Shown here: piece by piece, positions 31,036 to 52,148 of the stretch | Layout: the number at the start of each line of letters is the position of its first letter | Numbering within the stretch: position 1 is the first letter of the stretch | NCBI RefSeq assembly: GCF_009601505.1 | Contig: NZ_WITC01000061.1 | Location: forward strand, 124,001-188,000 | Reading direction: 5' to 3' | DNA: 64,000 nt | Source: Sinorhizobium terangae | GTDB lineage: Bacteria > Pseudomonadota > Alphaproteobacteria > Rhizobiales > Rhizobiaceae | Position numbers and translations under genes: made by a program | The notes under the pieces: model-generated | Database searches by the model: none | What the model was told of the DNA's origin: nothing | What the model saw: the letters and a program-made list of their open reading frames with translations, nothing else

Positions 31036-31437
31036 GATGCACCCGTCATCGTTCTTTTCGTGTGGGACCGATTTGAGGCTCGAAAGGCCGCGGCGTCAAG
31101 CAAGCGGTTCGGGGGCGGGGTCGATACCCGTTCGAGCTAGACCAAAAGGGTGAGCGACGATTGACTATCTGTTCCCGCCGTGACAGCCTCTGCTGCAGTG
31201 CAGCAATGCTGCACCCTGTCTCGCACGGTCAACCTGCTCGGTGGACGACTGTTTTCTTGCGGCCGGATCGACACTTTTTCGGAAACACGCGCGCCTACGC
31301 GCCGGCCCCGTGGCCTTTGCTTAGGTGCGGCCTGACATCGCAGGTTGCGCCGCCTCAAAGGCGACCGACCCAACAATTGCCGTCATTCTGGAGTTGATGC
31401 CTTTCTCCTCACCGGTTCGGGTGAGGTGCCAGCCTAC
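31036..31437. other. Gene-free stretch upstream of the polysaccharide locus
   Basis: About 400 bp without a supported gene. It contains a small palindrome CTGCAGTGCAGCAATGCTGCAC near 31192-31213. A RIME-like element follows at 31438. Confidence 0.5.
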
Positions 31438-36701: not shown

Positions 36702-37162
36702 GTTCCGTCATCCCCGTGTGAAAGTCTCGCCAGACATGGGAGGGTAGTGTCGGCCGACTTGCCGCTCGCAGCGGCGCCCGTGTCCGACGGACAACCCGCA
36801 ATGGCGTTCTGTCGCGAAGTTTTGGTGAATTCATGGCCGGGGAAGCGTTTTCTGCCGCAATGCAGCATAAGGGGTGGGCCTCATAACAAGGCGGCGGCCT
36901 GAGGCGCTAACGGCAACGGAGTCTGGCTCTGGGCAGCGACTATGAACTCGAAAGCAGCGGGAAATGGCTCTGGGCCGTTGCGGTGGCAAACCAACCGCTT
37001 AGTCTGGCGATCGAAATATTGGCCGGATCGAGCCTCACGGACGCCGTTTACGGGTCTGGGATTGCGGCCTCACTGCCTGCCGGTGCGTGGCAATCGGCGC
37101 GCCTGGTCGTGCCTTGGCAACGCGAGACCAAGCGGAACCTCGCCTTTGTATGGGAGGAAGGC
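36702..37162. other. Gene-free stretch between the polysaccharide locus and the acyl-CoA ligase
   Basis: 460 bp. The ligase frame stays open back to 36983 (GTG), but the residues encoded there are not family-like. No repeats or clear promoter were recognised. Confidence 0.5.
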
Positions 37163-44622: not shown

Positions 44623-45697
44623 TAAAGTAACCGTCTTCGTGGGCCCGTCGCTCGGACGTGATCGCCCTACCTACCACGGTCTCGAGGTTGACTATCGCCC
44701 GCCCGCTTCCCAAGGAGACCTCTTGGCGGCCGCGGTTGACGGTCCGAAAGCCATCGTCTTGATCGACGGCTATTTCGAACATGTGCCTGCAGTGCACCAT
44801 AAGGAGATCCTATGGGCGCTTGACAAGGGCATTGCCGTGTACGGCGCCTCCTCCATCGGGGCTCTCCGAGCGGCGGAGTTGAGCTCGTTCGGAATGATCG
44901 GCGTGGGAAAGATCTTCGAAGCTTTCGAGTCGGGGGAACTCGAACGCGACGATGAGGTCGCCTTGGTTCATGGACCGGCGGAAGTCAACTATGAGCCGCT
45001 TTCAGAGCCTCTCGTAAACATTCGATCGACGCTGTCGTTCGCTTTGGAATCGGGAGTTGTCGATCGAGAGATTGCCGAGACCCTGATCAACCGGACCAAA
45101 GCGGCCTTTTACCCGGAGCGCAGTTTCGGTCGCCTGTTGCGCGACTTGGAGCATCACGCAGACCGCGTGCAAGCGGCGAGGTTCGCAAGCTGGTTACCGC
45201 GTGGGAGGCTGGACCAGAAGCGCATGGATGCAGTGGCTTGCCTTGCCCGAGCGACCGCCGATATCCTGCAGCCGCCCGGTGAACATGGGCACTCGAGCAT
45301 CGGATTCGTCTTCACCGACGCATTCGCTCAGCTGGTACGATGCACCGCGGCAGGATTGCCGCTGGGAAGCCAGGTTGCCCACAGGCTGATTCGATTGGGC
45401 TCCGATACGAAAGCGGGTTTATCGTCCGTATACGCATCCGGAGCCACGAGCGCGGCCGCCTTGGCAATAGACCGGGCCACTCAAGGCCCAGTTCCGGTTC
45501 GTTCGCTCGGTGAGACCGTCCAATTCTTCCTGGAACAGGTGCCGGGAGGAGACGTCGGTACCTGGATGAAGACGAGGAATCTGGATCTTGATACGCTGTC
45601 CCGAATATTGGAGGAGTTGGCCCGAATGGATCGGTCCTTCGAAGCGGCAGACGAGTTGGTTCAAAGAGTAGTTCATTCCAAGCTGAAAATAAGCTGA
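44615..45697 (+). CDS. TfuA-like protein
   Basis: 360 aa from ATG at 44615 (MADKVTVFVGPSLG); an ATG at 44600 adds five residues. N-terminal TfuA core: VTVFVGPSLGRDRP, ALDKGIAVYGASSIGALRAAELSSFGMIGVG, and FEAFESGELERDDEVALVHGP. TfuA was named from the trifolitoxin locus and is thought to deliver sulfur or recognise the substrate for its YcaO partner. The C-terminal half (residues about 215-360) is an alpha-helical extension without a recognised domain. Confidence 0.88.
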   Translation: MADKVTVFVGPSLGRDRPTYHGLEVDYRPPASQGDLLAAAVDGPKAIVLIDGYFEHVPAVHHKEILWALDKGIAVYGASSIGALRAAELSSFGMIGVGKIFEAFESGELERDDEVALVHGPAEVNYEPLSEPLVNIRSTLSFALESGVVDREIAETLINRTKAAFYPERSFGRLLRDLEHHADRVQAARFASWLPRGRLDQKRMDAVACLARATADILQPPGEHGHSSIGFVFTDAFAQLVRCTAAGLPLGSQVAHRLIRLGSDTKAGLSSVYASGATSAAALAIDRATQGPVPVRSLGETVQFFLEQVPGGDVGTWMKTRNLDLDTLSRILEELARMDRSFEAADELVQRVVHSKLKIS

Positions 45698-49799: not shown

Positions 49800-50084
49800 T
49801 CAATCGGTGATGTGAAACCCCACCGGCTCATGCACGGACGAGGCATCTTCGCTCTCGACGTTTGAAACCCGTGCCGCGGGCGGACCTTTCCAGAACCGGC
49901 TCAGCATCGCCGAAATCGCCGCCGCGGGTCCTGCAATGAGGGCGGTGACGGAGCCGTCGCGCTCGTTGCGGACCCAGCCCGCCAAGCCGAGCCGTACCGC
50001 TTCGTCGCGGGTCCAGACGCGGAAGGCGACGCCCTGCACCCTTCCAGTGATCCGGACCAGAGCCGCTTTGCGATCCTCCGCCAT
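49800..50084 (-). CDS. acyP: Acylphosphatase
   Basis: 94 aa from the ATG with GGAAGGAGG upstream. The signature [16 protein letters not shown] holds the phosphate-binding Arg, and [11 protein letters not shown] the catalytic Asn. Hydrolyses acyl phosphates such as acetyl or carbamoyl phosphate in the cytoplasm. Single-domain, not fused to HypF. Confidence 0.93.
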
Positions 50085-50228
50085 GGTCGCCTCCTTCCTT
50101 GTTCGGTCCTCTGAATCTGGCGCAGACGGCGGCGAATGCAAGCGGATCGCTTGGGGTGAACGGTGGCCATGCGCGTGCGCGCCGTCATGCCCGACACCGT
50201 TGCCGTTCAGAAAATCTGCCCCCTCGGA

Positions 50229-50257
50229 CTTGAAGGCGCTGCATCGCAATACCATTG
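50229..50257 (+). promoter_or_regulatory. RpoH-like promoter of the small RNA
   Basis: CTTGAA (50229-50234), 17-nt spacer, CCATTG (50252-50257). This fits the alphaproteobacterial sigma-32 consensus CTTGAA-N17-CCATnT. A transcript would start near 50264, just before the first hairpin. Confidence 0.6.
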
Positions 50258-50263
50258 TATGAA

Positions 50264-50380
50264 TCATCGACAGGGCCTCCTCCTCCCGGCCCTGTCGTGG
50301 GATCGGCAACCATCCTCCTCCCAGTTGCCGATCAGATTCGGAAGCCCGGCGCCCCTCCCCCCGCGCCGGGCTTTCTTTTT
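50264..50380 (+). ncRNA. Small RNA with CCUCCUCCC hairpin loops
   Basis: Two perfect hairpins, 50269-50296 (8-bp stem GACAGGGC) and 50301-50333 (10-bp stem GATCGGCAAC), each show CCTCCTCCC in the loop (50279-50287 and 50314-50322). A terminator hairpin with a C-rich loop follows. The loops are anti-Shine-Dalgarno, as in rhodobacterial cuckoo RNAs and rhizobial alpha-r sRNA families that carry such motifs. Predicted length about 115 nt. The exact family is not assigned. Confidence 0.75.
50342..50380 (+). terminator. Rho-independent terminator of the small RNA
   Basis: An 11-bp stem AAGCCCGGCGC / GCGCCGGGCTT, 10-nt C-rich loop, then TTTCTTTTT. Orientation is plus, matching the sRNA. Confidence 0.85.
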
Positions 50381-50481: not shown

Positions 50482-50510
50482 GGGAACGTTTCAGCGGGTC
50501 CGGCATCCAA
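50482..50510 (+). promoter_or_regulatory. ECF promoter upstream of the sigma gene
   Basis: GGGAACGTTTC (50482-50492) and GCATCCAA (50503-50510), with 15 nt between GGGAAC and GCATCC. The same two blocks and spacing occur at 51219-51247. GGAAC is the usual ECF -35 core. Confidence 0.72.
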
Positions 50511-50532: not shown

Positions 50533-51216
50533 ATGCCCATCACTAAGAAGATCCCATCCCGAAAACGCGAGGCATCGCCGCAAGACATTGACGCCTTCCG
50601 CGCCATTATGCGGACGCACAATCGCAAGCTCTACCGCATTGCCCGCAGCATTGTGCAGAACAACAGTGATGCCGAGGACGTTCTCCAGGAGGCCTATGTC
50701 CGCGCTTTCACGCATTTTTCCGACTTCCGCGGCGACTCGGCGATCACCACATGGCTCTCGCGCATCGTGATCAACGAGGCCTTGGGGCGGCTGCGCCAGG
50801 GGCGGCGACGGAGGCGGCTTGCCGAAGACATGTTGCAGACCCATCAGGCGGAGATCATCGCCTTCCCGCGCAACGCAGACACGGACGATCCGGAAAAGAC
50901 AATGGCACAGCGACAGATTCTCGACCTTGTCGAAAAGGCGACCGATCAGCTTCCGGACATCTACCGCACCGTCTTCGTCATGCGGGTGATCGAGGGTCTC
51001 AGCAACGAAGACACCGCCGAGTTGCTGGCGCTTCGCCCCGAAACCGTCCGAACACGGCTCTTTCGCGCGCGACACCTCATCAAAGAGCAACTGGAGAAAC
51101 AGATCGGTCCGCTTCTGCTCGACGCCTTCCCCTTCGCGGGTAAACGTTGTGAACGTCTGACGGAGGCCGTGCTCGTTCGCATCTCGCAACAGGAACCGAA
51201 GGGCGGCGGCAAGTAA
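50533..51216 (+). CDS. ECF RNA polymerase sigma factor
   Basis: 227 aa from the ATG ([11 protein letters not shown]) with AAGGAGG upstream. Region 2: [51 protein letters not shown]. Region 4: [48 protein letters not shown]. No anti-sigma gene is adjacent, so control must be by other means. Autoregulation is suggested by the shared promoter blocks. It appears to drive the DUF4142-cupredoxin operon. Confidence 0.92.
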
Positions 51217-51297: not shown

Positions 51298-51822
51298 ATG
51301 ACCATCCGCCTAACCACCGCAGCCGCTGCGATCGCCCTGTTGATCGGGGGCAATTGGGCGCTCGCCGCCGACAAGCCGACGGATCCACAGATCGCGCATA
51401 TCGCCTACACCGCAGGTGTGATCGATATCGAAGCGGCAAAACAGGCCATTGCGACGTCGAAAAACAAGGCCGTCGTAGAATTCGCCGAGAGCATGGTGCG
51501 CGACCACGAGTCGGTGAACAAGCAGGCACTCGATCTCGTCAAGAAGCTCAATGTTACGCCCGAGGACAACGACACCAGCAAGGCCCTGTCGCAGGCGGCC
51601 GAAACCAAGCGTTCGGAGCTGGCGAAGCTGACGGGCGCTGACTTCGACAAGGCCTATGTCGAGAACGAAGTCGCCTATCACAAGCAGGTCAATGGCGCGC
51701 TGGAAACCCTGCTGATCCCGTCTGCGCAAAATGCCGAGCTCAAGTCTCTGCTCGAGACCGGGCTGAAGCTGTTCCAGGGCCATCAGCAGCATGCCGAGCA
51801 TATCGCGACGGAGCTGAAATGA
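51298..51822 (+). CDS. DUF4142 exported protein
   Basis: 174 aa with AGGAAAGGA upstream. Signal peptide ends at ALAAD. Helical ferritin-like DUF4142 body: IDIEAAKQAIATSKNKAVVEFAESMVRDHESVNKQAL and FDKAYVENEVAYHKQVNGALETLLIP, with conserved His residues (RDH, AYHK, HQQHAEH) that could bind metal. Common in stress-induced rhizobial operons. Overlaps the cupredoxin gene by 4 bp. Confidence 0.88.
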   Translation: MTIRLTTAAAAIALLIGGNWALAADKPTDPQIAHIAYTAGVIDIEAAKQAIATSKNKAVVEFAESMVRDHESVNKQALDLVKKLNVTPEDNDTSKALSQAAETKRSELAKLTGADFDKAYVENEVAYHKQVNGALETLLIPSAQNAELKSLLETGLKLFQGHQQHAEHIATELK

Positions 51823-52148
51823 ACGCGGCAACGAACGCGGTGAGACCGGCTTTTCTCGCCCTGTTGTTGGGAACTGCGGCCATCGCCGTTCCCGCGCAGG
51901 CAGAAACCATCGAGGTGACGATCGACCGCCTCGCCTACGCGCCTGCGGCGATCGAGGCCAAGGTGGGAGATGAAGTCGAGTGGATCAACAAGGATGCGCT
52001 CGTTCACACCGCCACGGTGACGGGAGGCGCGGAAGTGCTCGTCCCCGCGAAGAAATCAGGTCGCCTCCGGCTGCAGGAGCCGGGCAGCTTCGACTATATC
52101 TGCCGCTACCACCCCAACATGAAGGGGCACATCACCGTACGCCCTTGA
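51819..52148 (+). CDS. Cupredoxin (amicyanin/pseudoazurin-like)
   Basis: 109 aa with a signal peptide ending PAQAE. Type 1 copper ligands: His in LVHTATVTGG and the C-terminal loop CRYHPNMKGHITV supplying Cys, His and Met. Secreted with DUF4142; probably a periplasmic electron carrier or copper chaperone in an envelope/oxidative stress response under the ECF factor. Confidence 0.88.
   Translation: MNAATNAVRPAFLALLLGTAAIAVPAQAETIEVTIDRLAYAPAAIEAKVGDEVEWINKDALVHTATVTGGAEVLVPAKKSGRLRLQEPGSFDYICRYHPNMKGHITVRP

Follow-up and report, generated by a model that had tools for sequence, protein, structure and literature searches.

PhaR-type operator sequences at promoters of ar14 small RNAs and at the rpoE8-linked copy in Sinorhizobium

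The nearest described relative of the RNA reported here is NfeR1 (Smr14C2) of Sinorhizobium meliloti, a member of the ar14 (alpha-r14) family, Rfam RF02344. The loops of NfeR1 pair with ribosome sites and so redundantly silence transport-protein mRNAs and the ntrB mRNA (PMC10746234, PMC7143759). The anti-Shine-Dalgarno siblings AbcR1 and AbcR2, which form the separate Rfam family ar15, have overlapping targets and different promoters (PMC8844928) and provide a model for promoter divergence among ar14 copies: in S. meliloti, AbcR2 depends on RpoH1 and AbcR1 on LsrB (PMC8844928).

A link between small RNAs and carbon storage is also on record. PhaR (AniA) is a PHB-binding regulator with the S. 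meliloti motif YGCRNYGCR flanked by AT-rich arms (PMC12542648). It represses MmgR, a different RNA concerned with phasins and PHB level (PMC12542648, PMC7143759), whose promoter contains an operator bound by PhaR (PMC12542648, Table 3), as may hold for the RNA described below in most of the genomes examined. In the same 2025 paper, PhaR bound the S. meliloti rpoE-acyP intergenic region in EMSA (PMC12542648). The genes of that region run acyP - rpoE8 - SMb20593 - amcY, and the sigma factor belongs to ECF group 29 (PMC6180224).

Here we describe a small RNA gene in the corresponding interval of Sinorhizobium terangae, within a 64-kb stretch of DNA that was analysed as a whole and that we call the window. 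We think it probable that this gene is an rpoE8-linked ar14 paralogue encoding an anti-Shine-Dalgarno silencer, switched by PhaR in 12 of 17 genomes and RpoH-like in the window's own clade. An ar14 member was to be expected here; the new and testable point is the PhaR-type operator at the rpoE8-linked and other ar14 promoters.

The RNA and its locus

Relatives of the protein encoded downstream of the RNA place the window in Sinorhizobium/Ensifer, and the window has the same gene arrangement as S. meliloti. A divergent acylphosphatase gene, acyP (49800..50084, minus strand; Pfam PF00708; found in 16 of 16 Sinorhizobium/Ensifer loci), is followed on the plus strand by an rpoE8-like ECF sigma factor gene (SMb20592-like, 50533..51216; Pfam Sigma70_r2 and Sigma70_r4_2, and gene order), a DUF4142 protein gene (SMb20593-like, 51298..51822; Pfam) and a cupredoxin gene (amcY-like, 51819..52148; Pfam). 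An ECF29-type promoter of the sigma gene, GGGAAC-N15-GCATCCAA (50482..50510, plus strand), is present in 17 of 17 loci; its consensus comes from PMC6180224. An earlier note, made from the letters of this DNA, had placed a small RNA just ahead of an ECF sigma gene, and the Pfam sigma domains of the downstream frame bear this out.

The RNA gene itself occupies 50262..50378 on the plus strand and folds into three hairpins. Fold and orthologue alignment define hairpin 1 (50264..50300) and hairpin 2 (50301..50333), each exposing a CCUCCUCCC loop, at 50279-50287 and 50314-50322, where the window sequence is CCTCCTCCC. Hairpin 3 (50340..50378), defined by fold and orthologue comparison, includes the intrinsic terminator, a G+C-rich hairpin followed by a T run to about 50380. 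All of the sequence elements that the earlier note had listed (CTTGAA-N17-CCATTG, the two hairpin loops and the terminator) are found at 50229-50380. The terminator loop holds a third, degenerate copy of the motif, which the note had overlooked.

The fold is far more stable than expected by chance. The stretch 50262-50378 folds at -64 kcal/mol, compared with -37.0 +/- 3.1 for 200 shuffled versions, none of which equalled it (z -8.7). The 9-mer by itself is not rare, with three occurrences in the window against 0.72 expected and at least three in 4 of 100 shuffles; significance rests in the arrangement of the 9-mers and not in their count.

A search with Rfam covariance models, including the alpha-r families that the earlier note had proposed for this purpose, places the RNA in ar14. 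The match covers model positions 1-123 of 123 at 102.7 bits (cut-off 58.8, E 8e-18) and is the sole Rfam match above a curated cut-off in the whole window. By sequence, then, the 50262-50378 RNA is a further member of the known ar14 family, its rpoE8-linked paralogue, and the earlier suggestion of an anti-Shine-Dalgarno sRNA of rhizobial alpha-r kind proved apt. Like NfeR1 it has a length of about 115 nt, three CCUCCUCCC-loop hairpins with variable stems, a terminator and several sister copies in the genome. It differs from NfeR1 in lying between acyP and rpoE8, in having one degenerate loop and in belonging to a group with a PhaR-type operator in 12 of 17 genomes.

Other families were rejected. 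The ar7 model gives 37.1 bits against a cut-off of 60, and ar15 (RF02345) has no match on this part of the window. The Rhodobacter CcsR or cuckoo RNAs (RF02791), to which the earlier note had likened the RNA, share CCUCCUCCC loops and tandem hairpins with it, and CcsR1 is a stress RNA by its Rfam name. However, the CcsR1 model reaches just 43.1 of the 65.3 bits that membership demands, and the window's RNA is without a strong RpoH promoter. The upstream neighbours are also different: CcsR lies downstream of a CcaF1-type gene under RpoH, whereas the window's RNA has the divergent acyP.

The locus is conserved in the relatives fetched. We fetched 16 Sinorhizobium/Ensifer relatives, giving 17 orthologues with the window, and in 16 of 16 the gene lies between acyP and rpoE8 with CCTCCTCCC loops at the same position; loop conservation in relatives, which the earlier note had set as a test of its reading, is therefore found. 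By contrast, an exact-motif search found no such loops within 1200 bases upstream of the sigma gene in 24 other loci, one of which (L046) encodes a sigma protein merely 24% identical. Three exact 9-mers are present in 12 of the 17 orthologues and two in the other five (the window, L011, L012, L014 and L016), where the third loop is the inexact copy. Thus of the three unpaired CCUCCUCCC loops typical of ar14, two are exact in the window and the third is exact in 12 of 17 orthologues.

The stems vary and still pair, as in other ar14 RNAs. Over 32 counted pairs, 99.6% of cells pair among the 17 orthologues, and 7 pairs have changed on both sides (five of the nine consensus pairs of hairpin 1, two in hairpin 3 and none in hairpin 2). 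For pairing, both-side changes and the covariation score, 0 of 500 shuffles were as high, a result that does not amount to a probability because the orthologue sequences are related. The covariation score also exceeded that of every slid version of the alignment. One of five covariation measures, further pair types, was not raised (430 of 500 shuffles as high).

The promoter of the rpoE8-linked copy

Aligning the 17 orthologue promoters reveals a palindrome between the -35 and -10 elements in 12 of them, and this palindrome matches the PhaR (AniA) site. Scored with a matrix of 24 EMSA-bound sites, from which ar14-linked sites had been left out, the PhaR-type operator reaches 17.1-22.8 bits at the same place in the spacer of all 12. 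The matrix also performs on a control: two of three host phasin loci have two PhaR-type sites each (20.6-22.9 bits), and the phaR gene is present in the host.

One of these operators coincides with a published binding site. Efficient PhaR binding is recorded for AGATGCTGCACTGCAGCATTA, 290 nt before rpoE8 (PMC12542648, Table 3), and this site is identical in every letter to the promoter spacer of L020, the orthologue in S. meliloti 4H41. A second site in that table, between SMc02855 and SMc02856, for which binding was not evaluated (PMC12542648), is the promoter site of another 4H41 ar14 copy, L110. The main text of PMC12542648 names no sRNA at rpoE8/acyP: 'sRNA' is absent, 'small RNA' occurs three times and the passage concerns MmgR. 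There acyP is mentioned three times: among the plasmids, one of which is a PacyP fusion, in Table 3 and where EMSA binding is stated. No reporter result for the rpoE8/acyP region was found in that main text; in the proteome data acyP is marked NR (not regulated, or assigned to no module) and rpoE8 is marked ND.

The window's own operator has decayed. It lies in the promoter spacer at 50234..50254, on neither strand in particular, with the core CTGCATCGCAA (50239-50249), and scores 5.9 bits, rank 18 within the 64 kb. The core is broken in L007, L008 and L010, and this weakness makes PhaR control of the window's copy doubtful. At the position where twelve genomes read ATTATTGT or ATTATTAT, the five with decayed operators read ACCATTGT, and these five form one clade (support 100/98). 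A single loss of the operator would be the simplest reading of this pattern, although the rooting also allows a gain elsewhere. Two other ar14 copies of the host have strong PhaR-type sites (L134, 20.8 bits; the first tandem copy, 17.7 bits).

Within the window, PhaR-type sites score highest (17.1-19.4 bits) at three places: at 31188, between divergent frames near 31.2 kb and followed by a glycosyltransferase-like gene; at 36850, before an acyl-CoA-ligase-like frame starting at 36983; and at 44782, inside a reading frame at 44.8 kb. Both gene names were given by eye.

What then drives the window's copy? Its promoter, CTTGAA (50229-50234)-N17-CCATTG (50252-50257), spans 50229..50257 on the plus strand and is RpoH-like in the window's five-genome clade only; the other 12 orthologues have CTTGAA, CTTGCA or CTTGCG, followed by N17 and TTATTG or TTATTA. 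We scored these promoters with a matrix from 22 Sinorhizobium promoters upstream of Cpn10/groES and HSP20 genes (10 distinct element pairs), kept for their fit to the consensus from 54 upstreams inspected and 31 tried. The window scores 9.5 and its clade members L007-L010 score 12.9, 9.5, 9.5 and 11.5, whereas the other 12 orthologues score at most 4.7. The RpoH-like form that the earlier note described in the window is thus seen in the five genomes and not in the other 12 of 17. RpoH as a general driver of rpoE8-linked ar14 RNAs is out for those 12. Judged from these scores, RpoH control is possible in the window's clade and is not a property of the gene across the genus.

Could RpoH transcribe the RNA in the window's organism as a stress sRNA, as the earlier note proposed? 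The -35 matches in full, the -10 has CCAT, and the RpoH-like form is confined to one well-supported clade (100/98) whose scores of 9.5-12.9 come close to the weakest of ten AbcR2-type promoters (10.4-16.9) and lie well over four AbcR1-type promoters (1.5-2.6); these types were assigned from their promoters, RpoH1 dependence being published for S. meliloti AbcR2 only. Yet 9.5 is far under the 18.9-24.8 of the training promoters, scores that are flattered because the promoters were picked for fit, and 22 places in the window, the sRNA promoter included, score equally well or better. Moreover, the published driver of NfeR1 is sigma70 (PMC7143759, PMC10746234). With the low scores of 12 of 17 orthologues added, we regard transcription by RpoH in this organism as possible and, on balance, rather unlikely. 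LsrB control of the kind described for NfeR1 was also rejected, there being no TGCA-N6-GCAT within the window's 150 upstream bases.

The best RpoH-type promoter of the window belongs to the neighbouring gene. Upstream of acyP, CCGCTTGCA-N16-CCAGATT (50114..50145, minus strand) scores 19.2. All 17 loci retain the CCAGAT, although the promoter scores range from 5.2 to 19.2. A strong promoter with so well conserved an element suggests that the acylphosphatase gene may be a heat-shock gene. Both kinds of element lie upstream of L174, an ar14 RNA from another family of the order: an RpoH-like promoter (20.1) and a PhaR-type site (21.9).

It is improbable, though not far-fetched, that the window's clade simply retains a largely silent, decaying paralogue that is redundant with NfeR1. 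The decayed operator and the inexact third loop would fit such a copy, as would a review's statement that only one of six copies in S. meliloti Rm1021 is reliably seen on northern blots (PMC7143759). Nevertheless the stems pair with compensatory changes across the 17 orthologues, two window loops are exact, and the -35, the spacing and the TTGTATGA stretch are kept in five of five clade members. One detection in six would also fit repression by PhaR. But SmelA075, which belongs to this loop family, has been observed as an RNA induced by stress (PMC3927594), and this does not agree with a simple rule such as 'silent except NfeR1'. The acyP-rpoE8 interval has no match in the main text of PMC2873474, and expression of the rpoE8-linked copy was not found in the main texts of the literature covered, as distinct from supplements and subscription papers.

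PhaR-type sites across the ar14 family

The preferred reading, PhaR control of the rpoE8-linked copy in most of the genus, can be set against the rest of the family. Five ar14 copies of the host exceed the cut-off and one further match is weak; of 100 matches in the 16 relatives, 84 exceed it. The relatives examined each carry between four and eight nearly redundant copies. Across the order as a whole, a match at E <=0.001 was obtained in 63 of 199 genomes, and 29 of the 199 have one that passes the cut-off.

Upstreams were scanned at a threshold of 12.5 bits, the top 1% of 492 window stretches. From the genus we took the 84 over-cut-off copies of relatives, five of the host, the weak L136 and the duplicate L100, without L124, L127, L128 and L132, leaving 85 over-cut-off copies. 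The wider order contributed 41 copies from 40 stretches with better-scoring copies, excluding the host and L160, L169, L170 and L173. A site of at least 12.5 bits was present in 69 of 128 ar14 upstreams (68 of 127 distinct). Shuffled upstreams gave 1.3 on average and at most 4 in 60 rounds, and reversed sequences gave 1. A first look with the regular expression YTGC-N3-GCAR, later replaced by the matrix, had found 42 of 87 upstreams against a mean of 2.2 in 100 shuffle rounds. Many copies are related, and the independent cases are consequently far fewer than 69.

The sites are distributed by paralogue group, with groups drawn by eye from tree order. All SMc02855/56-type copies have one (17 of 17), as do 12 of 17 rpoE8-linked copies, 12 of 14 first tandem copies, 7 of 8 of a second CTTGAA type and 5 of 7 of a further type; the NfeR1 type (0 of 16) and one more type (0 of 6) do not. 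Of the wider-order copies, 15 of 41 have a site; seven of these belong to a different genus within the host's family (G039, G203) and the remaining eight to four further families. The site is hence carried by five groups within Sinorhizobium/Ensifer and by some copies of other families. S. meliloti 4H41 exemplifies the pattern: three of its four over-cut-off copies are at or above 12.5 bits (L020, 22.8; L110, 19.9; first tandem copy, 13.2), and the fourth, which we infer to be NfeR1 from its LsrB-type motif, scores 5.4 bits.

In the first copy of the tandem pair (L133), the PhaR-type site and a CTATAT element stand far upstream, about 160 bases ahead of the first loop, which suggests that the transcript of this copy may be longer, extended at its 5' end by some 100 bases.

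Controls were largely clean. Sites occurred in 16 of 3931 random stretches of the fetched loci, in 1 of 54 heat-shock gene upstreams and in 0 of 26 ar35 upstreams (26 of the 29 over-cut-off ar35 copies had a locus). However, ar15, chosen as a negative control, came out positive, with a site in 16 of 28 upstreams (L249-L276). The sites, at 14.3-21.3 bits and roughly 60-100 bases before the RNA, belong to AbcR1-type and third copies; none of 10 AbcR2-type upstreams has one. The site is accordingly not peculiar to ar14, and a different regulator that recognises this motif could conceivably be involved. Either the PhaR story would be wider than ar14, or a same-motif regulator would be at work.

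A search of open-licence full texts, as distinct from subscription papers and supplements, found no PhaR link to ar14, NfeR1 or cuckoo RNAs. In the parts of these sources that were covered, PMC12542648 never mentions NfeR1; PMC10746234 never mentions PHB and has AniA once, in a citation about MmgR; and PMC7143759 has AniA twice, both times on MmgR, and PhaR not at all.

In a different reading, the PhaR site and the RNA would serve rpoE8, the RNA acting as a leader or attenuator and not as a trans-acting sRNA. The published table does assign the PhaR site to rpoE8 and acyP (PMC12542648), and in 16 of 16 Sinorhizobium/Ensifer loci the RNA stands at a fixed place ahead of rpoE8. We consider a leader very unlikely all the same: an intrinsic terminator stands about 150 bases ahead of rpoE8, a separate ECF29 promoter for the sigma gene follows the RNA in 17 of 17 loci, paralogues of the same RNA occur at other genomic sites, and the motif is missing upstream in the 24 other sigma-gene loci (one of them, L046, 24% identical).

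Targets and a model for the family

The loops point to candidate mRNA targets in the host. The perfect complement GGGAGGAGG stands 3-10 bases before an ATG at 12 places, against 2 for the reversed pattern. Pfam was informative for four of these 12 candidate targets, an ABC permease component, a solute-binding protein, a LacI regulator and a FAD-binding protein, and two of the 12 open frames of just 17 and 42 aa. The 12 candidates belong to the ar14 family as a whole and not to the rpoE8-linked copy specifically. That the repeated loops within one RNA could instead titrate an RNA-binding regulator or ribosomes, as a sponge, is hardly credible given these 12 complements against 2 and the direct silencing of mRNAs by the NfeR1 loops (PMC10746234).

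We propose that the rpoE8-linked paralogue works as follows. The RNA of about 115 nt would use its loops to pair with purine-rich ribosome binding sites and in this way block the translation of several mRNAs, mainly ones that serve nutrient uptake and metabolism. The ar14 paralogues, with common loops, presumably common targets and different promoters, would share this silencing activity, and each promoter would set when it is made. In 12 of 17 genomes, PhaR (AniA) bound between -35 and -10 would repress the rpoE8-linked copy. When PHB is stored, its granules would titrate PhaR, the RNA would be made and uptake would be damped under carbon excess. In the window's clade the operator appears to have decayed and the -10 region to have turned RpoH-like. 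Two pieces of this scheme stand in print from S. meliloti, namely PhaR binding to the region by EMSA and loop-mediated silencing by NfeR1.

A broader proposal, which we regard as almost evenly balanced between right and wrong, would extend PhaR control to the family. The ar14 RNAs other than the LsrB/NtrC-controlled NfeR1, together with AbcR1-type ar15 RNAs, would form a PhaR regulon in which PHB granules release uptake-silencing RNAs. The PhaR site at S. meliloti rpoE8/acyP would belong to the sRNA, PhaR repression would explain why the paralogues are hard to see, and the window's clade would have swapped PhaR for an RpoH-like promoter.

If this is true, carbon storage is tied to the silencing of uptake through a PHB-sensing repressor that sits before much of the ar14 family, and a published PhaR binding site needs to be reinterpreted. 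The little-seen copies should then appear on PHB accumulation or on loss of phaR. There would also be a reason for a genome to keep four to eight almost redundant copies, in that a single set of loops would be available under several switches. The PhaR link could thereby explain how the ar14 RNA family is switched on and off.
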